Origin: a virus
Strand: one strand, 5' to 3'
Length of the DNA stretch: 31,875 nucleotides
IMG/VR virus record: IMGVR_UViG_3300030020_000068
Span: 1 to 31,875 of that record
The position numbers were made by a program, and so were the translations under genes. The notes beneath the pieces are model-generated. The model was not told where the DNA came from. It saw only the letters and a list, made by a program, of their open reading frames with translations, and ran no database searches. This document shows, piece by piece, positions 8,865 through 26,566 of this stretch; within the stretch, counting starts at the first letter, position 1, and each line of letters starts with the position of its first letter.

Positions 8865-9601
8865 GCACATTGATATTTACAATTATTATTGTGCCATCTA
8901 GTAATATTAGATTTTAAAGCTTTTAAACCACACTTGATACAAGTAGACTTTTTATAAATTCTACTATCATTTGAGTGTTTGATTTTTTCTAATGTTTCTA
9001 AAGAATGGGATATTCCTTTATTCCAAGGGATATCACCACTTTTAAATTGTTTAGGTGGAATAATTCCTTGTTTAGCAATAGATTTCTTTTTTCTGGTTTC
9101 TTTAGATTCTTTAATTCCTTTTTTGACTCCGACAAGTTCACCAGATAGCCAACGAGGATCATCTTTAGAGACTTTTAGACCAAATCCATTTTTATCAACA
9201 ACTGATATTTTACCTTTATTTGCTTTAGAAATTTTTTGTTTTTGAAAATTTGTTTTTGGGTTTCCTTTTTGTAAAGGAAAACAATCTCTACCGCCTTCTG
9301 TCAGGTTATATAAAATACCTGTTGAATTTAGTTTTCTGCCATAAAATGCAATTAATTCTTCTTCTAAATAAAATGCTTCATCTTCAAAAAGATCAGTCGC
9401 ATACATAATTATGGGAGGATTTTTATTTGTCTCTTGACGAATTGTTTGAATTAAGTTATACTTATCTAAATTAGTATACTTTTCCCTACAGTGTGTTAAA
9501 TGTATTTTATGTCTGTTTCCACAACCTTTACCAATATAAAATGGCTGATTATTATCTAAAGGGTTTAAATAAATGTAAACATAAAATTTAGTTTCTAACA
9601 T
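8861..9601 (-). CDS. GIY-YIG homing endonuclease with NUMOD motifs and zinc finger
   Basis: The N terminus YVYIYLNPLDNNQPFYIGKG carries the GIY...YIG signature. The catalytic Glu is likely in EDEAFYLEEELIAFYG, followed by NLTEGG. The middle has NUMOD3-like repeats (QKQKISKANKGK; SLETLEKIKHS) that bind DNA, and the end a C-x2-C...H-x4-C finger (CIKCGLKALKSNITRWHNNN). 246 aa, apparently intact. It lies on the opposite strand to its neighbours, directly before the RNase H coding region. Its AGGAG site is masked by a hairpin. Confidence 0.9.
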   Translation of the reverse strand: MLETKFYVYIYLNPLDNNQPFYIGKGCGNRHKIHLTHCREKYTNLDKYNLIQTIRQETNKNPPIIMYATDLFEDEAFYLEEELIAFYGRKLNSTGILYNLTEGGRDCFPLQKGNPKTNFQKQKISKANKGKISVVDKNGFGLKVSKDDPRWLSGELVGVKKGIKESKETRKKKSIAKQGIIPPKQFKSGDIPWNKGISHSLETLEKIKHSNDSRIYKKSTCIKCGLKALKSNITRWHNNNCKYQCA

Positions 9602-9602
9602 G

Positions 9603-9640
9603 AGTGATTCTCCTTACTTATTATTTATAGAAAAATCACT
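9603..9640 (-). promoter_or_regulatory. Late promoter inside SD-masking hairpin for GIY-YIG gene
   Basis: Read on the minus strand, AGTGATTTTTCT (9640-9629) can pair with AGGAGAATCACT (9614-9603): 12 pairs, two of them G.U. The second arm holds the AGGAG site of ATG 9601. Between them lies an exact late box TATAAATA (9629-9622), which would start RNA near 9616 and leave out the masking arm. Confidence 0.7.
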
Positions 9641-9656
9641 TGATTTTCACGGAAGG

Positions 9657-10163
9657 ATGATAAATATTTCAATTTTGGTAGATTTTCACGGAACCATGAT
9701 AGCCTCTATCATGGTTCAAATTCATAGAGATAATAATTATCTGATCGACGAAGACCTGATTAGACACAGTATTCTCAATAGTATTCGTCGATATAGAACT
9801 AAGTTTGGTCGAGAATATGGTAACATGATTATTTCATGTGACTCTGGTAGTTCTTGGCGATACTCTATATTCGAACAATATAAAGCAAAACGTAAGAAAA
9901 GTAAAGACGAATCTGAATTTGATTGGGTAGCTATTCACGAATACATGGATAAAATCAAAAAAGAATTGCGTGAATATATTCCTTTTCCTGTCCTTCAGGT
10001 TGCCAACGCCGAGTCCGACGATATTATCGGAACTTTGGCTTCTTCACCATATGTGAAGAAGTGTCTGATTATTTCGGAAGATAAAGATTTCTTACAATTA
10101 TTATCAGAAAAAGTTTCTATATACAAACCTATTAGAGATATATTAATCAAGTTGAAAGATTGA
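9657..10163 (+). CDS. rnh: RNase H / 5'-exonuclease, N-terminal (catalytic) fragment
   Basis: T4 RNase H family (FEN-like 5' nuclease that removes RNA primers). Visible are SILVDFHGTM (first metal-binding Asp), a DSGSSWRYSIFEQYKAKRKK helical-arch region, the acidic ANAESDDIIGTLA and ISEDKDFLQLL. The frame stops at TGA 10161-10163, just before the helix-three-turn-helix domain, which is found in a separate frame at 10422. Start choice: ATG 9657 has GGAAGG touching it; ATT 9666 has that site nine bases upstream and would give the typical N terminus MSILVDF. An ATG at 9600 has no ribosome-binding site. Confidence 0.82.
   Translation: MINISILVDFHGTMIASIMVQIHRDNNYLIDEDLIRHSILNSIRRYRTKFGREYGNMIISCDSGSSWRYSIFEQYKAKRKKSKDESEFDWVAIHEYMDKIKKELREYIPFPVLQVANAESDDIIGTLASSPYVKKCLIISEDKDFLQLLSEKVSIYKPIRDILIKLKD
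9692..9716 (+). repeat. 10-bp inverted repeat inside the RNase H coding start
   Basis: AACCATGATA (9692-9701) and TATCATGGTT (9707-9716) are perfect inverted copies with a 5-base loop. The hairpin lies about 35 bases after the start and could affect translation or mark a nicking site of the adjacent endonuclease. Confidence 0.6.
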
Positions 10164-10360
10164 CCAACCTTCAGAATTTTTTCTTTCCTCAAAATTTCTA
10201 ATAAAATTTGCTTTATTAGAAATTTTTGGTACAGTATTGTATTCTTCATTAACATCCTTATATAATTGACTAAAAGATATTTTATGTATATTACAAAATT
10301 TTTTTAATTCTCCATGAATAATATACTCTATATCATTATGAAAGCGTATATAAAAGCCAT
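10143..10360 (-). pseudogene. C-terminal relic of a homing endonuclease within RNase H
   Basis: On the minus strand a frame from 10358 to TAA 10145-10143 encodes about 71 aa: FYIRFHNDIEYIIHGELKKF, CNIHKISFSQLYKDV and a final SEGWSIFQLD. The pattern GELKKFCxxHxIS...L...G W is the C-terminal DNA-binding repeat of phage GIY-YIG/HNH endonucleases. The nuclease domain is missing. An ATG at 10360-10358 preceded by AGGAT is in another frame by two bases, so a deletion has joined the old start to the tail. It splits the rnh gene. Confidence 0.65.
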
Positions 10361-10424
10361 TGATTTATCCTATTTTCTGTGGTAATATATTATTTATATA
10401 ATAGGATAAGGATTTTAATCAATG
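10358..10424. promoter_or_regulatory. Inverted repeat with minus-strand late box; overlaps start of rnh C-fragment
   Basis: TTATCCTATT (10365-10374) pairs with AATAGGATAA (10400-10409), and CATTGAT (10358-10364) with ATCAATG (10418-10424), with an 8-base bulge. TATAAATA is read on the minus strand at 10398-10391 in the loop. This is the same plan as at the intact endonucleases and marks the old endonuclease start. Its outer arm now also contains AAGGA (10408-10412) and ATG 10422 of the RNase H C-terminal fragment. Confidence 0.6.
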
Positions 10425-10802
10425 AAGGAAGAATTTTATACTAAAGATGAAATAAAGAAGTTTCTGTTTGAGCACATTATTAAAGGTGATGCAACGGATG
10501 GAATACCGAATATATTTTCTGATGATGATACTTTTATTAATAATACCAAGAGACAAAAGCCAATTTATCAAAAAAAGATTGATGAATGGTTTATAAATAA
10601 AAATGAGTTTGATAAGGTCATTGCAGACTCTCACTATATCAGAAATGATCGATTAATTAATTTAAAGCATACACCAGCAGAAATCAAGGCTGATATTATA
10701 AAAGATTTGATTGATCAAAGCAAAAAGCCAAATTTGCTTATGGATTATCTTCAAAAGTATAATCTTGCATATTTGCTAGAACATTACCAAGAATTTATTT
10801 AG
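10422..10802 (+). CDS. rnh: RNase H / 5'-exonuclease, C-terminal (H3TH) fragment
   Basis: Residues 11-35 (IKKFLFEHIIKGDATDGIPN) match the helix-three-turn-helix DNA-binding motif of the RNase H/FEN family (T4: MTKIIKGDKKDGVAS). The rest follows the T4 C-terminal domain, including NRLI-like NDRLINLKHTPAEIKADI (T4: ENLVLIDFDYIPDNIASNI). It has its own AAGGA site and ATG, 258 bases after the N-fragment stop. Joined to that fragment it would give an approximately full-length T4-sized enzyme (about 296 residues versus 305). The two pieces may assemble in trans, or the enzyme may be lost. Confidence 0.82.
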   Translation: MKEEFYTKDEIKKFLFEHIIKGDATDGIPNIFSDDDTFINNTKRQKPIYQKKIDEWFINKNEFDKVIADSHYIRNDRLINLKHTPAEIKADIIKDLIDQSKKPNLLMDYLQKYNLAYLLEHYQEFI

Positions 10803-16372: not shown

Positions 16373-16439
16373 AATGTTCTTGGTTCCCTATGTATATGTA
16401 TATGAATAGTAGTCTTACTACCATATATGTACAGCGTTC

Positions 16440-16516
16440 GTTCTGTTTACATGTAAACGTTGAGCTATCGTAGATAGTGCTGAAAGACCGGGGGGCAGTA
16501 CCCCGCCGGTCCACCA
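16440..16516 (+). ncRNA. ssrA: tmRNA acceptor piece (permuted ssrA, 3' half)
   Basis: This piece carries the 3' end of the tRNA-like domain. The T arm is CGGGG-GGCAGTA-CCCCG (16489-16505), five pairs with a seven-base loop. It is followed by acceptor strand CCGGTCC (16506-16512) and encoded ACCA (16513-16516). Upstream, TGCTGAAA (16478-16485) can pair with TTTTGGCA of the coding piece to make helix P2, and CTATC-GTA-GATAG (16465-16477) forms a hairpin beside it. The acceptor strand pairs with GGGCCGG at 16608, 92 bases downstream, so the gene order is circularly permuted as in alphaproteobacteria. The 5' end is approximate. Bases 16517-16607 are the spacer that would be removed during maturation. 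Confidence 0.85.
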
Positions 16517-16607
16517 AAAGTGTATATGAGACAATTAAAATTATTCGGATAATAAAGATTATAGTCGTTATAATGTAATCCGAACATTATACATATACGT
16601 TTTTGAT

Positions 16608-16803
16608 GGGCCGGAAATAGGCTCGATTTTGGCAGGAAGTGGGTAAGGAGTTTACCGGGCGGTGTCGCTCTGATACGGGACACAAAACTGTAAATGTCGC
16701 AGCTAATGACAATAGACCCGCTGTTTCTGAAGCAATGAGAATTGCAGCTTAAACTTTAAGGTTTTGCAGTCCGAGGGGAACTGTATAAAATAATCCCCTC
16801 ACT
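16608..16803 (+). ncRNA. ssrA: tmRNA coding piece (permuted ssrA, 5' half)
   Basis: GGGCCGG (16608-16614) is the 5' acceptor strand. It is followed by AAATAGGCTCGATT, a match to the conserved tmRNA D-loop region (AAUGGNUUCGAC), and TTTTGGCA (16627-16634) for P2. Hairpins GGTAA/TTACC (16642-16656) and GTGTC/GACAC (16662-16683) lie in the PK1 area. The tag frame is at 16699-16752. After it, CAGT/ACTG (16767-16770/16780-16783) interleaves with GAGGGG/CCCCTC (16773-16778/16795-16800), a clear H-type pseudoknot. Together with the upstream acceptor piece it should rescue stalled ribosomes and tag their products. The 3' end is approximate. Confidence 0.87.
16699..16752 (+). CDS. tmRNA proteolysis tag reading frame
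   Basis: The frame has no start codon. Resume codon GCA follows AATGTC (E. coli: ATAGTC GCA). It encodes AANDNRPAVSEAMRIAA and then TAA. The ANDN beginning and the -AA end are hallmarks of alphaproteobacterial tags. At 17 encoded residues it is longer than the usual 10-13, and the penultimate residues (RIAA) differ from the common LAA or VAA, which could change recognition by ClpXP adaptors (inference). Confidence 0.85.
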   Translation, partial: AANDNRPAVSEAMRIAA

Positions 16804-16929
16804 TCTTTCTTTTATATTAGAACATATATAACGATCATTAACTCGACCTTTATGACCGCCTACATAAAATAATTTAGCTTTGGTATCATACCAAATGTAT
16901 ACATAACCAGTATAAATAATTGTTGACAA
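16756..16929 (-). pseudogene. Truncated GIY-YIG endonuclease abutting the tmRNA
   Basis: On the minus strand TTG 16929, with AGGAG seven bases before it, opens a frame MSTIIYTGYVYIWYDTKAKL, FYVGGHKGRVNDRYICSNIK, ending after 57 codons. The first 40 residues are the N terminus of a GIY-YIG nuclease (YVYIWYD...FYVGGHKG). From about residue 41 the frame runs into the antisense of the tmRNA coding piece, so the rest of the nuclease is missing. The homology break coincides with the tmRNA 3' edge near 16803-16810. Confidence 0.75.
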
Positions 16930-21501: not shown

Positions 21502-21879
21502 ATGATTTTTCAAATTGGTGATAAGGTTGTTTCAACCACAAAAGATGTTATTGTTGTAAAAAATTGCATTTATACTGTAAATGCAATCAAAACTACATCT
21601 AGTAATTTATCGAGTTATGGTGGAGAACAACAAGTTTATCTTCTTGAATGTGATGCATGGTTTGAAGCTAAACAATTCAAGCTTCATTCCAGAAATATGT
21701 ATATCGTTGTCAAAAATTATACGTCTGTTATTTCAAGACATTATAATGATGAAGACGCTGTGAAATGGATTAAGACACAGAACGATCCTGTAAACATTTA
21801 TACAATTTTCTTGGCAGTACGAGAATTCAAGGCTGTTCAAACCATTGAGTGGAAGGAAGTAGAAAATGTCACAGTTTAA
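21502..21879 (+). CDS. Hypothetical protein (125 aa)
   Basis: ATG 21502, two bases after the previous stop; TTG 21496 is in frame but less likely. Starts MIFQIGDKVVSTTKDVIVVK NC, a beta-barrel-like (SH3 or Tudor) beginning with GDKV. It ends 14 bases inside pnuC. Unknown. Confidence 0.55.
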   Translation: MIFQIGDKVVSTTKDVIVVKNCIYTVNAIKTTSSNLSSYGGEQQVYLLECDAWFEAKQFKLHSRNMYIVVKNYTSVISRHYNDEDAVKWIKTQNDPVNIYTIFLAVREFKAVQTIEWKEVENVTV

Positions 21880-22633
21880 GCTTAATTTTTATGGTATTCT
21901 TATTGCAAGTGTTCTGACAGCAGTTTCATATGTTGCAGGAATTTACTTCCAATGGATCGACAAGCTGAATTGGTTAGAAATCTTTTCAGTATGTACATCA
22001 TACTGGTGTACATATCTTTGTGTATTTCAGTCAAGGTTCAATTATCCGATTGGAGCAGTATCAGTCATTGCTCTAGGCGCTCTATTCTATCAGCAAAGCC
22101 TATTCGGATCAGCAGCATTACAGGTTTACTTACTTCCTTGGCTGATCTATGGATGGTTTCGTTGGGGACCAGATGACGCAACACTTCCTATTTCTCCTAT
22201 TATTTGGGGATTTTCAAGTCCGTCAGAATGGTTTTCAAGAATAAACATTTTCAATTTTTCTCAATTGAAGAATAATTGGAATTTACTTGTAGGTGACTAT
22301 ACTGTTCTTTTGGTAGTAGCATACAGCCTCATTTTCTTTACATCAAAGACAATCGATGGTAATGCTGTTGCTCTTGATAGCTTTCTATTCGCCGGATCAG
22401 TTGTAGCACAACTTATGCTTGATAATAAAAAGATGGCAAACTGGTGGATTTGGATTGCAGTCGATATCGTTTCAGTGTATGAATATTGGGGCCAAGGACT
22501 TAAGGTTCTGGCTATTCAGATGGCAATTTTCATTCTAAATGCTCTTTGGGGTCTATACGAATGGAATAAGTCAAAGAAGGTCGTAATCGATAATGTCAAA
22601 CTTCCTCAACCTAAAATTGGTGGATTAATCTGA
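21866..22633 (+). CDS. pnuC: PnuC nicotinamide riboside transporter
   Basis: Seven or so hydrophobic helices fill 255 aa. The C-terminal block LDSFLFAGSVVAQLMLDNKK followed by NWWIWIAVDIVSVYEYWGQG is the PnuC signature (W-x-W/N...D). It should carry nicotinamide riboside across the inner membrane by facilitated diffusion, trapped by phosphorylation by the NadR encoded next. The unusually long N-terminal part with RWGPDDATLP is typical of phage copies. The stop overlaps the nadR ATG. Confidence 0.9.
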   Translation: MSQFKLNFYGILIASVLTAVSYVAGIYFQWIDKLNWLEIFSVCTSYWCTYLCVFQSRFNYPIGAVSVIALGALFYQQSLFGSAALQVYLLPWLIYGWFRWGPDDATLPISPIIWGFSSPSEWFSRINIFNFSQLKNNWNLLVGDYTVLLVVAYSLIFFTSKTIDGNAVALDSFLFAGSVVAQLMLDNKKMANWWIWIAVDIVSVYEYWGQGLKVLAIQMAIFILNALWGLYEWNKSKKVVIDNVKLPQPKIGGLI

Positions 22634-23652
22634 TGAATGGTCTGATCCTGATGACAGCTATGCCCCCAACAAGGGGGCATGAATTTTTAATTGAGTATGC
22701 TGAAAATTTTATGAATTCTAGTTTTAATTCAAATCTTTATGTTATGGTGAATAGTCGTTCTCACGAGCCTATCATCGAAAATGATAAAGAAATTGCTTTT
22801 CGTAATCAATTTAAAAACAAAGATCGAATTCATTTTCATTTTTTTAATCAGGATATTGTACAAGAGCCGTCAGATCATCCTGATTTTTGGAATATTTGGC
22901 ATGATATAATCTTCTCTAATGTACAGGCAAAAATTGATTTTGTTTTTGCATCAGAACTCTATGGACTTAAGCTGGCAGAAGTGCTAAGAGCTAAGTTTAT
23001 TCCTGTTAATATTGGACGTGACATTCTACCTATCTCAGCTACACAAATTCGTAACGATCCGCTCAAGAATTTTGAATGGATCATGCCAGAATTTCAAAAG
23101 ATGGTAAGGCAGACTGTTACAATCTTCGGTCCTGAGAGCGTAGGCAAGACTACCCTGTCCAAGGCTCTATCCAAGGAAATTAATGGTCATCTGGTTCCTG
23201 AATGGGCCAGAGAATACCTAGAGACTGTTGGCTCTGACATTACCGAAGATAAGATGAAAATTATCATTGATGGACAGAAATCATTACAACAGTCTGTTAT
23301 TTCTTTTGAAAATAAGCCTTTTATCATTCAGGATACCGACCTGTTTTCCACATTAGGATTTTATAGGTTGTGGCGTGGTAATAATCCTAAATTGGTAGAA
23401 ACATTGGCTATATATCTCGCTTCAGATTTGTATATTCTTCCAAATGATAAAATTCCTTTTACACCAGATCAGCTTCGATTTGGTGGCGACAAGAGGGAGA
23501 GTGATAATTCATTTTGGATTAATATTCTAGAAGAATATTCACTACCTTATTACGTGCTTCAGTCATGGAGTCCAGAAGCCCAATTGCAAGAAGCTGCAAA
23601 ATATTGTCGAAACTTTTTTAATAAAAAAATTAATTGGAGATTTGAGCGATAA
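22633..23652 (+). CDS. nadR: NadR-like NMN adenylyltransferase / ribosylnicotinamide kinase
   Basis: A bifunctional NAD-salvage enzyme. The N-terminal nucleotidyltransferase has PPTRGHEFL (15-16 = GH motif) and ISATQIR (134-140). The C-terminal kinase has P-loop GPESVGKTT (166-174) and PEWAREYLE, QDTDLF. It would turn imported nicotinamide riboside into NMN and then NAD. There is no DNA-binding repressor domain. 339 aa. Direct overlap with pnuC (TGATG) shows they act together. Confidence 0.92.
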   Translation: MNGLILMTAMPPTRGHEFLIEYAENFMNSSFNSNLYVMVNSRSHEPIIENDKEIAFRNQFKNKDRIHFHFFNQDIVQEPSDHPDFWNIWHDIIFSNVQAKIDFVFASELYGLKLAEVLRAKFIPVNIGRDILPISATQIRNDPLKNFEWIMPEFQKMVRQTVTIFGPESVGKTTLSKALSKEINGHLVPEWAREYLETVGSDITEDKMKIIIDGQKSLQQSVISFENKPFIIQDTDLFSTLGFYRLWRGNNPKLVETLAIYLASDLYILPNDKIPFTPDQLRFGGDKRESDNSFWINILEEYSLPYYVLQSWSPEAQLQEAAKYCRNFFNKKINWRFER

Positions 23653-23837
23653 TGCAAGACAGACTTGAAAATCTTAAAGCTGCAAGATGTTGGAAAGATG
23701 AACATTCTTATGGTAAATCATGTTCCAGTTGGATAGGTTTATCTAAATTTGATGTGGAATGGGCTGTTTTTGAGATAGAGACTTTACGAGAAAAATTAAA
23801 GGAAAAATACGCAAAAAATCCTCCTTTAATGCGTTGA
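23652..23837 (+). CDS. Small hypothetical protein (61 aa)
   Basis: ATG overlaps the nadR stop (TAATG). Charged, helical, two cysteines (AARCWKDE and KSCSSW). The stop overlaps the -35 box of the next promoter. Unknown. Confidence 0.55.
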   Translation: MQDRLENLKAARCWKDEHSYGKSCSSWIGLSKFDVEWAVFEIETLREKLKEKYAKNPPLMR

Positions 23838-23862
23838 CAAAGGCTCTTTAAGAGGGTATACC
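23834..23862 (+). promoter_or_regulatory. Strong sigma-70-type promoter for the amidoligase unit
   Basis: TTGACA (23834-23839), exactly 17 bases, TATACC (23857-23862). Within the spacer CTCTT-T-AAGAG (23844-23854) is a small inverted repeat that could be an operator. Confidence 0.72.
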
Positions 23863-23895: not shown

Positions 23896-24948
23896 ATGAT
23901 CACCGACCGTTCCTTTGGAATTGAAATTGAATTCGTGTTTCCTGATAATCATTATGGCGATTATGATGATTTTGCTCAGCTTGTCTCTGGGCAAGGTATC
24001 GATTGCCGTAACAAGGGTTATTCTCACAATATTGTTAATTATTGGAAACTTGTTCCTGATGGTTCTGTGGCTGGTGGGGCCGAGATTGTTTCGCCCATTC
24101 TTCGTGGTGAAGAAGGTGTTGAGCAAGTCGTCAAGATGTGCAATATTCTGCGTAAGCTGAATTGCAAAGTCAATAACACCTGTGGTCTTCATGTCCATAT
24201 CGGTGTCGAAAAGGAAGTTGAAGAAAATGATGTCAAATTCTTCAAGAATTTGCTTCGCATCTATACCTCTTTTGAGCATGTGATCGACAGCTTCATGCCT
24301 CCTTCTCGTCGTGCAAGTGCCAACAGCTATTGTGCTTCTCTGAAGGATATTAACCCTCAGTCTACCGAAGAATTCAAGACTGTTGCCGACGTTATGAGGG
24401 CTCGTTTTGGTCGTTATTATAAGATCAATATGGAAAGCCTGAATAACTACAAGACTGTTGAATTTCGTCAACATTCTGGTACTCTGGACGGCACCAAGAT
24501 TGTTTCTTGGATTAATTTCTGCTTTAAGATCGTCGAAAAGGCAAAAACTGAAATTCCTGAAGTCTTCGCTCCTTCCATGATCGAAGAAACTGTTTTACAA
24601 AATCCTGTTATGCCTTATATTCGTCATCGTTATTCTGCTGAAAAATATATTGTTGATCTGCTTTTCAGCAGGGGTCAACAAGGTTTGACCACTGAAGAAG
24701 CCAAAAGAGCTTTTGAGGCTACTACTTCTCTTGGTGCAATCATCAGGAAGCATGATATTCCTGTTAAGGTTGTTCAGGAAGGTCACAAAAAGCGTTTCAT
24801 TGTGTCTCCGGTCGAAAAGAAAGTGAAGAAGTTTCAGTATCGTACCGATCCCAATTTCTTCAATTTCGACAATCTGATCAAGTTCGTCGGATTGAATAAT
24901 CTAGAAACTGCGTTCTTTCAGGAACGTATGGAAAGTCTTAACGCCTAA
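23896..24948 (+). CDS. Amidoligase-family (ATP-dependent COOH-NH2 ligase) protein
   Basis: FGIEIEF (7-13), PDGSVAGGAEIVSPIL (54-69), CGLHVHIG (96-103) and VEFRQHSGTLD (188-198) follow the amidoligase pattern of glutamine-synthetase-like fold enzymes that join an amine to a carboxylate. The C terminus (about 220-350) has a winged-helix-like stretch (GLTTEEAKRAFEATTSLGAI). Codons are richer in C/G than those of surrounding genes. ATG 23896 follows GAGAGG (23883-23888). Next comes a gamma-glutamylcyclotransferase-like gene, a known pairing. Substrate unknown: a gamma-glutamyl or peptide modification is likely. Confidence 0.82.
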   Translation: MITDRSFGIEIEFVFPDNHYGDYDDFAQLVSGQGIDCRNKGYSHNIVNYWKLVPDGSVAGGAEIVSPILRGEEGVEQVVKMCNILRKLNCKVNNTCGLHVHIGVEKEVEENDVKFFKNLLRIYTSFEHVIDSFMPPSRRASANSYCASLKDINPQSTEEFKTVADVMRARFGRYYKINMESLNNYKTVEFRQHSGTLDGTKIVSWINFCFKIVEKAKTEIPEVFAPSMIEETVLQNPVMPYIRHRYSAEKYIVDLLFSRGQQGLTTEEAKRAFEATTSLGAIIRKHDIPVKVVQEGHKKRFIVSPVEKKVKKFQYRTDPNFFNFDNLIKFVGLNNLETAFFQERMESLNA

Positions 24949-24962
24949 TAGGAGTGGAATAT

Positions 24963-25412
24963 ATGCTTTATCTTGCTTATGGTAGCAATCTCAATGTCGA
25001 ACAAATGAAGTGGCGTTGTCCAGATGCCACCCCTGTAAAGGGTTTGGCAATTGATAAATATAAACTGGTGTTTAAATATTTTGCAGATATTGAAAAGGAT
25101 GATGATAGCATCCTTTATGCTGGTTTGTGGGATATTACGCCAAAGTGTGAAGAAAGCCTAGATCACTATGAAGGTGTAGATAATCAGCTTTATTTTAAGC
25201 GATATTTTCGCTATAAGGGTGATCCTGTTCTTTATTACAAGATGAATAATTATAAGATCGAAAAGCCAAGTCGATCTTATGTTCAGACTATTGCCAAGGG
25301 CTATAAAGATTTTAGTCTACCTGAAAGGTTCCTATATGAAAGTGTAGGAAAGGCAATTCAGTTTGAAGAAGAATTCAAATACTTTGAACCAGAGGAAGAA
25401 ACCTTTAAATGA
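24963..25412 (+). CDS. Gamma-glutamylcyclotransferase-like (AIG2/GGCT) protein
   Basis: MLYLAYGSNLNVEQMKWRCP has the YGSNL loop (residues 6-10) that holds the gamma-glutamyl group; a Glu in DHYEGVDNQLYFKR may be catalytic. 149 aa is normal. ATG 24963 follows AGGAG (24950-24954). GTG 24954 is in frame but overlaps that site. It should release a gamma-glutamyl amine as 5-oxoproline, and so could undo or finish the product of the amidoligase encoded just upstream. Confidence 0.85.
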   Translation: MLYLAYGSNLNVEQMKWRCPDATPVKGLAIDKYKLVFKYFADIEKDDDSILYAGLWDITPKCEESLDHYEGVDNQLYFKRYFRYKGDPVLYYKMNNYKIEKPSRSYVQTIAKGYKDFSLPERFLYESVGKAIQFEEEFKYFEPEEETFK

Positions 25413-25615
25413 AAACTTTTAGATACATTGATAATGACGCTCGTCGAAATATTACAGATGGACGAGAGCTTGATCATGTTCCACAACAAGGGGAAATAAT
25501 TTCCCCTTTTAATACCCCTAACGGACGAGTAATTTGGGAAGTTGTCTATGTCGAGGATATTGACTTAGACTATACATTCGTATATGTTCGTCACAAAGGC
25601 TTTCAAAAAGAATGA
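25409..25615 (+). CDS. Small hypothetical protein (68 aa)
   Basis: ATG 25409 overlaps the cyclotransferase stop (ATGA). Beta-rich: RELDHVPQQGEIISPFNTPN and VVYVEDIDLDYTFVYVRHK. It probably folds as a small barrel. Conserved position after the enzyme pair is unproven. It overlaps the next gene by 4 bases. Confidence 0.55.
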   Translation: MKTFRYIDNDARRNITDGRELDHVPQQGEIISPFNTPNGRVIWEVVYVEDIDLDYTFVYVRHKGFQKE

Positions 25616-25933: not shown

Positions 25934-26087
25934 AGGGCTCAAGAACGTCTCTGAGAGCTTTACCATGACCCTTTTAGAGGGAACCGAGGCTACCTTCGCC
26001 ATTTTCGACGGAAGCCAGTCAGTGGCCCTTATAACGGTCGTAGATAAGTCCCGCAAATATAAGATCACAATGATGGAGATTGAGTGA
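25896..26087 (+). CDS. Small hypothetical protein (63 aa)
   Basis: ATG 25896 follows GGAG (25884-25887). Basic N terminus MSDKQKKSKPPYEGLKNVSE then beta strands (EGTEATFAIFDGSQSVALIT). Higher G/C at third positions (ACC, GCC, GTC). It ends in the TGA that overlaps the HD gene's ATG. Confidence 0.55.
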   Translation: MSDKQKKSKPPYEGLKNVSESFTMTLLEGTEATFAIFDGSQSVALITVVDKSRKYKITMMEIE

Positions 26088-26566
26088 TGGAAACCGGATT
26101 TACAGCCAAGGCTCGTTTTGTAGCATTCTCCCTTCATGAAGGCAAGATGTATGGACGTTTTCCATATTGCTTTCATCTTGCAGATGTGGTAAAAAACCTC
26201 GTCAAGTTTAATTACGACGACGAAGATATGATTGCTGCCGGTTATCTTCATGACGTGATCGAGGATTGTGGACAGTCCGAAGATGGTTTGTCTGACTTAT
26301 TCAATCCAAAGGTTGCCAAACTCGTTGCGGCTGTATCAGGAAAGGGTGTAAACCGTAAGGAAAAGAAAGCCGACATGATTGCCAAGCTTCAGGCTTATCC
26401 AAAGGCAGTCCCTTTGAAGATGGCCGACCGTATGGCTAATATTCAAAATTGCAAAGAATTTAACCCTCGTATGTTGGATATGTATCGAAAAGAAATGTTT
26501 GACTATCAACAGCTTTTCAGCAATACTAATTACAACATGTGGATCGCAATGGAGAATTTACTATGA
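26087..26566 (+). CDS. SpoT/MESH1-like HD hydrolase
   Basis: YCFHLADVVKNLV, AAGYLHDVIEDCG and VPLKMADRMANIQNC are, in order, the first His, the HDxxED motif and the KxADRxxN motif of (p)ppGpp hydrolases. 159 aa, the size of small alarmone hydrolases with no synthetase domain. Likely reaction: (p)ppGpp to GDP/GTP plus pyrophosphate, though phage relatives could hydrolyse other nucleotides. ATG 26087 is preferred to the in-frame GTG at 26084. The end overlaps the next gene by 4 bases. Confidence 0.82.
   Translation: METGFTAKARFVAFSLHEGKMYGRFPYCFHLADVVKNLVKFNYDDEDMIAAGYLHDVIEDCGQSEDGLSDLFNPKVAKLVAAVSGKGVNRKEKKADMIAKLQAYPKAVPLKMADRMANIQNCKEFNPRMLDMYRKEMFDYQQLFSNTNYNMWIAMENLL

Follow-up and report, generated by a model that had tools for sequence, protein, structure and literature searches.

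The stretch of DNA analysed here (the window) is an IMG/VR virus record of 31,875 bases and represents a fragment of a phage genome. On its plus strand lies a pair of genes encoding an amidoligase (PF12224; 23896..24948, 350 aa) and a gamma-glutamyl cyclotransferase of the AIG2_2 type (GGCT; 24963..25412, 149 aa). Judged from their sequences, both genes are confirmed as real and intact. They are separated by 14 bp, which contain the AGGAG of the GGCT gene. The ATG at 24963 is the more likely start of GGCT than the GTG at 24954, because this AGGAG (24950-24954) stands eight bases before it. An ORF of 68 aa (25409..25615, +) overlaps the GGCT stop codon (ATGA), through which it is probably translationally coupled to GGCT. 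This ORF matched no family in Pfam, PHROG or NCBIfam, and none of the other loci fetched contains a relative of it.

Upstream of the ligase, we found a sigma-70-type promoter candidate, TTGACA-N17-TATACC (23834..23862, +), with the 11-base palindrome CTCTTTAAGAG in its spacer. The earlier note had described this region as a strong, near-consensus promoter with a possible operator. The sequence is indeed present and matches 10/12 positions, 6/6 in the -35 box (TTGACA) and 4/6 in the -10 box (TATACC). However, 24 sites with at least 10/12 matches occur on the plus strand of the window against approximately 11 expected from base shuffles, and the candidate is one among several intergenic TTGACA sites. 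For these reasons we consider the promoter plausible but not exceptional, and its -10 box cannot be called near-consensus. The putative operator amounts to the short palindrome, in a stretch whose RNA folding was not better than that of shuffles (z=-0.58), and it is therefore weakly supported and unproven.

Genomic setting of the pair

The source of the window is a distant T4-like phage. Its major head protein shares 57 % identity with the counterpart in Stenotrophomonas phage DLP6 and about 55 % with those in cyanophages. A permuted two-piece tmRNA of the alphaproteobacterial type is encoded at 16424-16843 (+), with the predicted tag VAANDNRPAVSEAMRIAA. It scores above the gathering score for both RF04321 and RF01849, and blastn against the phage collection gave no match. 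Because the tmRNA is of this type, the host is probably an alphaproteobacterium. Two-piece tmRNAs are already known from phages, and methylophage Melnitz demonstrates that a tmRNA of such type can mismatch the host (PMC9004378).

Several other genes of the window deserve mention. A PnuC-type NMN transporter is immediately followed by a NadR-like nicotinamide-nucleotide adenylyltransferase/kinase (together 21866-23652, +), which constitutes a phage NAD-salvage pair. An HD_4 phosphohydrolase (SpoT/MESH1-like) is located downstream of the ligase and GGCT at 26084-26566 (+). The gene for a 5'-3' exonuclease (9600-10802, +) appears to be split into two parts (9600-10163 and 10422-10802), separated by about 260 AT-rich bases in which no Rfam intron match was found.

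The same ligase sequence is present in two further virus contigs, one of which also carries an identical GGCT. The GC3 of the ligase gene is 0.39, compared to 0.2-0.3 for most neighbours and 0.43 for HD4. We rejected a mobile-cargo signature, as the value is below that of HD4 and the excess over most neighbours is too small for recent gain of the ligase to be claimed.

Identity of the ligase and the cyclotransferase

The assignment of the first gene as a COOH-NH2 ligase, made in the earlier note, is well founded. The protein scored 108 bits against Pfam Amidoligase_2 (PF12224, cut-off 22) and 136 bits against the amidoligase family PHROG_2443. In an alignment of 42 sequences, comprising the window and 41 relatives from virus contigs, G8, E10, E12, W50, D55, E63, H99, H101, R138, R139, N178, E189, R191 and R344 were invariant. 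The strictly conserved motifs are GxExE, E.VSP, GxHxH and ExR, and the window ligase keeps all the fixed positions. The protein consists of a core (approximately residues 1-220), an insert (approximately 248-303) and a C-terminal helix with the invariant Arg344.

The AlphaFold2 model of the ligase was confident (pLDDT 88.9). The best Foldseek match was YbdK (E 1e-5), followed by glutamine synthetases, and the other top matches were GshAB (bifunctional glutathione synthetase), gamma-glutamylmethylamide synthetase, gamma-glutamylcysteine synthetase and the Pup deamidase Dop. The top list is composed solely of ATP-dependent glutamate/carboxylate ligases and their kin. As the TM-scores are low (~0.37), the fold class alone is secure, and the model assigns the core to the GCS2/glutamine-synthetase fold. 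Sequence comparison places the ligase as a distant relative of GshA and YbdK with no close relation to either; the NCBIfam YbdK profile gave 14.8 bits, below its cut-off of 176. In the literature surveyed, we found no substrate, product or activity for any Amidoligase_2 member.

An insert of about 60 residues (24637..24804, +; codons 248-303) separates the core from the helix that carries Arg344. In about 24 relatives, the insert is a DUF3489-like winged helix, and DUF3489 itself was above the Pfam cut-off in one (L029) of the two relatives tested. The insert of the window gave a marginal hit (E=0.018) to a DUF3489-like profile with the window left out. By sequence alone its winged helix is weak, and the H-H-H-E-E order of secondary structure predicted by the model fits such a fold. 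The insert is basic, with a net charge of +5 in the window and a clade mean of +5.5.

The second protein of the pair reached 33 bits against AIG2_2 (PF13772, cut-off 27) and 74 bits against PHROG_2520, gamma-glutamyl cyclotransferase, while the GGACT profile stayed below its cut-off (18.8 vs 22.8). Human GGCT (2pn7) was matched through a family profile with E=6e-20. The YGSNL and LDxxEG motifs align with the human enzyme and Glu70 stands in place of its catalytic Glu; Tyr-Gly and Glu70 are invariant in all nine aligned homologues. These results bear out the description of this protein as an AIG2/GGCT-like enzyme. We also checked by alignment for missing catalytic residues, and the fixed motif residues of the ligase and the catalytic Glu of GGCT are all present.

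Partners of the ligase in related loci

GGCT was found in 48 of the 80 nearest IMG/VR amidoligase loci, always on the same strand and in 42/80 within 1.5 kb. The reverse search recovered an amidoligase within 1.5 kb in 46 of the 80 GGCT loci, and amidoligase density near GGCT was 7.1-fold that farther away. The distances among the ligases correlate with those among their GGCTs (Mantel r=0.60 for 71 pairs), with a maximum of 0.24 in 2000 permutations. The pairing is strongly non-random and the two genes are co-inherited. The link of these families by genome context, which the earlier note had mentioned, is already described, and several phages carry annotations of it. The key earlier study of this association is Iyer et al. 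2009, which the papers surveyed cite.

Of 132 distinct loci, 67 have another neighbour beside the ligase, a family of about 78 residues (SP) that nearly always follows it directly. When bacterial genomes are included, 94 of the 122 SP matches start at most 30 bases after the ligase stop codon, and many overlap it. No member of the family matches Pfam or PHROGs, and the three members compared with NCBIfam gave no match either. The structural model of SP is confident (pLDDT 95), but a search of the PDB gave no fold match, and the viral proteins that resemble it in fold are unnamed or uncharacterised. We considered and rejected SP as a C-terminally tagged carrier similar to LysW or Pup, since its C-terminus is not conserved and the PDB holds no fold match. 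Most relatives without an extension such as the winged-helix insert have SP directly behind the ligase instead: SP accompanies 49/64 short-tailed vs 17/56 long-tailed ligases (Fisher p=5e-7, phylogeny not corrected). No SP was found in the window.

In 52 of the 80 bacterial-genome loci, mostly from Bacteroidota, the ligase and SP occur without GGCT; these loci are probably prophages. We compared 140 distinct ligases whose flanks were complete: 133 of them adjoin SP, GGCT or an amidotransferase-like hydrolase of class II, and seven have no recognised partner. As 58/140 have SP and no eraser, GGCT is not obligatory. The class-II amidotransferase-like protein is found near a ligase lacking both SP and GGCT in 14/140 loci, and it seldom occurs together with GGCT at one ligase locus. 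In ten Bacteroidota loci, probably prophages (L223, L224, L227, L231, L241, L242, L244, L245, L253 and L254), a class-II glutamine-amidotransferase-like protein stands immediately behind the amidoligase and replaces SP and GGCT.

No ORF fusing the ligase with GGCT or SP was found. PADLOC-DB profiles for anti-phage defence matched neither the ligase, nor GGCT, nor SP, and the cassette was not retained as a defence system. Four Firmicute phages (L004, L005, L010 and L011) carry a conserved small zinc-ribbon protein (SRxDNxTxICPxCGxREALE) directly or nearly directly behind GGCT. The 68-aa ORF of the window was considered as SP or as such a third gene and rejected, as it is similar to neither. The GGCT-amidoligase association itself is known, but the winged-helix insert, the SP partner and the alternative erasers are apparently new; we found no earlier description of the clade-specific insert or the SP partner in the literature surveyed, which did not include Iyer et al. 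2009.

Possible function and comparison with known systems

We propose that the ligase and GGCT form a writer/eraser cassette for gamma-glutamyl conjugation on a target, a reading that we hold with about as much belief as doubt. A carboxylate, in this scheme most likely the gamma-carboxyl of glutamate, would be activated by the ligase at the expense of ATP and joined to an amine on the target, which we would expect to be a macromolecule rather than a small molecule. In the opposite direction, GGCT would remove the gamma-glutamyl group as 5-oxoproline, and because of this removal the mark may be transient or limited. The target is probably positioned by the winged-helix insert in this clade and by the separate SP in most others. 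The identity of the genes, the fold of the model, the conserved motif residues and the co-inheritance carry this proposal. The suggestion in the earlier note that the pair builds and trims a gamma-glutamyl conjugate fits the fold, motif residues and co-evolution, but none of the proposed substrates was confirmed. A three-part version, in which the ligase, SP or the winged helix for recognition, and GGCT or the class-II amidotransferase-like protein as eraser would reversibly attach gamma-glutamate to a macromolecule located at the DNA of the phage or host, we regard as very unlikely.

A role at the cell surface is the published prediction for the larger RIO-1/phiEco32/LUZ24 cassettes, which comprise two ligases, ATP-grasp, GGCT and amidotransferase (PMC5498523). 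The ligase would make unusual amide links on peptidoglycan peptides, GGCT would trim them, and the altered envelope would exclude other phages. The UFV-P2 list (PMC3890496) belongs with this prediction, which PMC11318856 also invokes. For the window this explanation seems unlikely, as there is a single ligase, the genes examined yielded neither ATP-grasp nor amidotransferase, both proteins appear to be cytoplasmic, and a winged helix is not an envelope feature.

It is quite improbable that the pair serves auxiliary metabolism in the infected cell by feeding nitrogen turnover or a turnover of the glutathione type (gamma-glutamyl cycle). Neither a winged helix nor a small partner protein of its own is an obvious need of a metabolic enzyme, GshA and YbdK are only distant relatives of the ligase, and glutathione synthase was not seen among the window genes examined. 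Nitrogen metabolism has nevertheless been proposed for Phage-ZRK32, which has amidoligase, glutathione synthase, GGCT and amidotransferase (PMC10945688); moreover, gamma-glutamyl amino acids are classical GGCT substrates, and the PnuC and NadR-like genes lie just upstream of the pair. Hypermodification of DNA bases would mean that glutamate is joined to a base with an amino group, or an amine to a base with a carboxyl group, and that GGCT trims the product. This reading could draw on the basic charge of the insert, on several prophages in which genes for a DNA methyltransferase or ParB adjoin the amidoligase, and on CmoY, a proven amide ligase for carboxymethylcytosine in DNA of Synechococcus phage S-B43 (PMC12783734). 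It is highly improbable, as CmoY is of the asparagine-synthetase type, we recognised no pathway for base modification either in the window or in the 7 kb upstream on the sister contig L256, and CmoA occurs in 0/44 amidoligase contigs of relatives. In these relatives the carboxymethylcytosine link, a form of the base target named in the earlier note, found no support.

The writer/eraser cassette is the reading we favour. Many bacterial phyla have phages that carry amidoligase cassettes, and the near-universal partner (SP, GGCT or the amidotransferase-like hydrolase), together with the winged helix of this clade, offers handles for finding the substrate.

Among known systems, CmoY of cyanophage S-B43 is likewise a phage ATP-dependent amide ligase, but it belongs to a different family and acts on carboxymethylcytosine, and its partner CmoA is absent from the 44 contigs mentioned above. 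The YbdK/GCS2 carboxylate-amine ligases and gamma-glutamylcysteine synthetase share the predicted fold of the window ligase without close sequence relation. In Geobacillus phage GR1 and Arthrobacter phage Salgado (PMC5513430), the amidoligase adjoins GGCT as in the window; however, their ligases are only about 30 % identical to that of the window and lack the insert, and in Salgado GGCT comes first. The phiEco32/LUZ24/RIO-1 cassette keeps Amidoligase_2 and GGCT together among early/replication genes (PMC3890496, PMC5498523), as does the window, but adds a second COOH-NH2 ligase, ATP-grasp and a glutamine amidotransferase that do not adjoin the pair in the window. In the four Firmicute phage loci examined, GGCT is followed by the zinc-ribbon protein and the ligase lacks a winged-helix insert, whereas the window has the unrelated 68-aa ORF. 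Yet the Firmicute pairs of phages and mobile elements (Ca. Heliusvirales, Terrisporobacter phage, C. difficile Tn6164 and C. clostridioforme prophages) consist of the same two families in the same order as in the window, and the two genes are likewise adjacent or nearly so (PMC3485107, PMC11318856).
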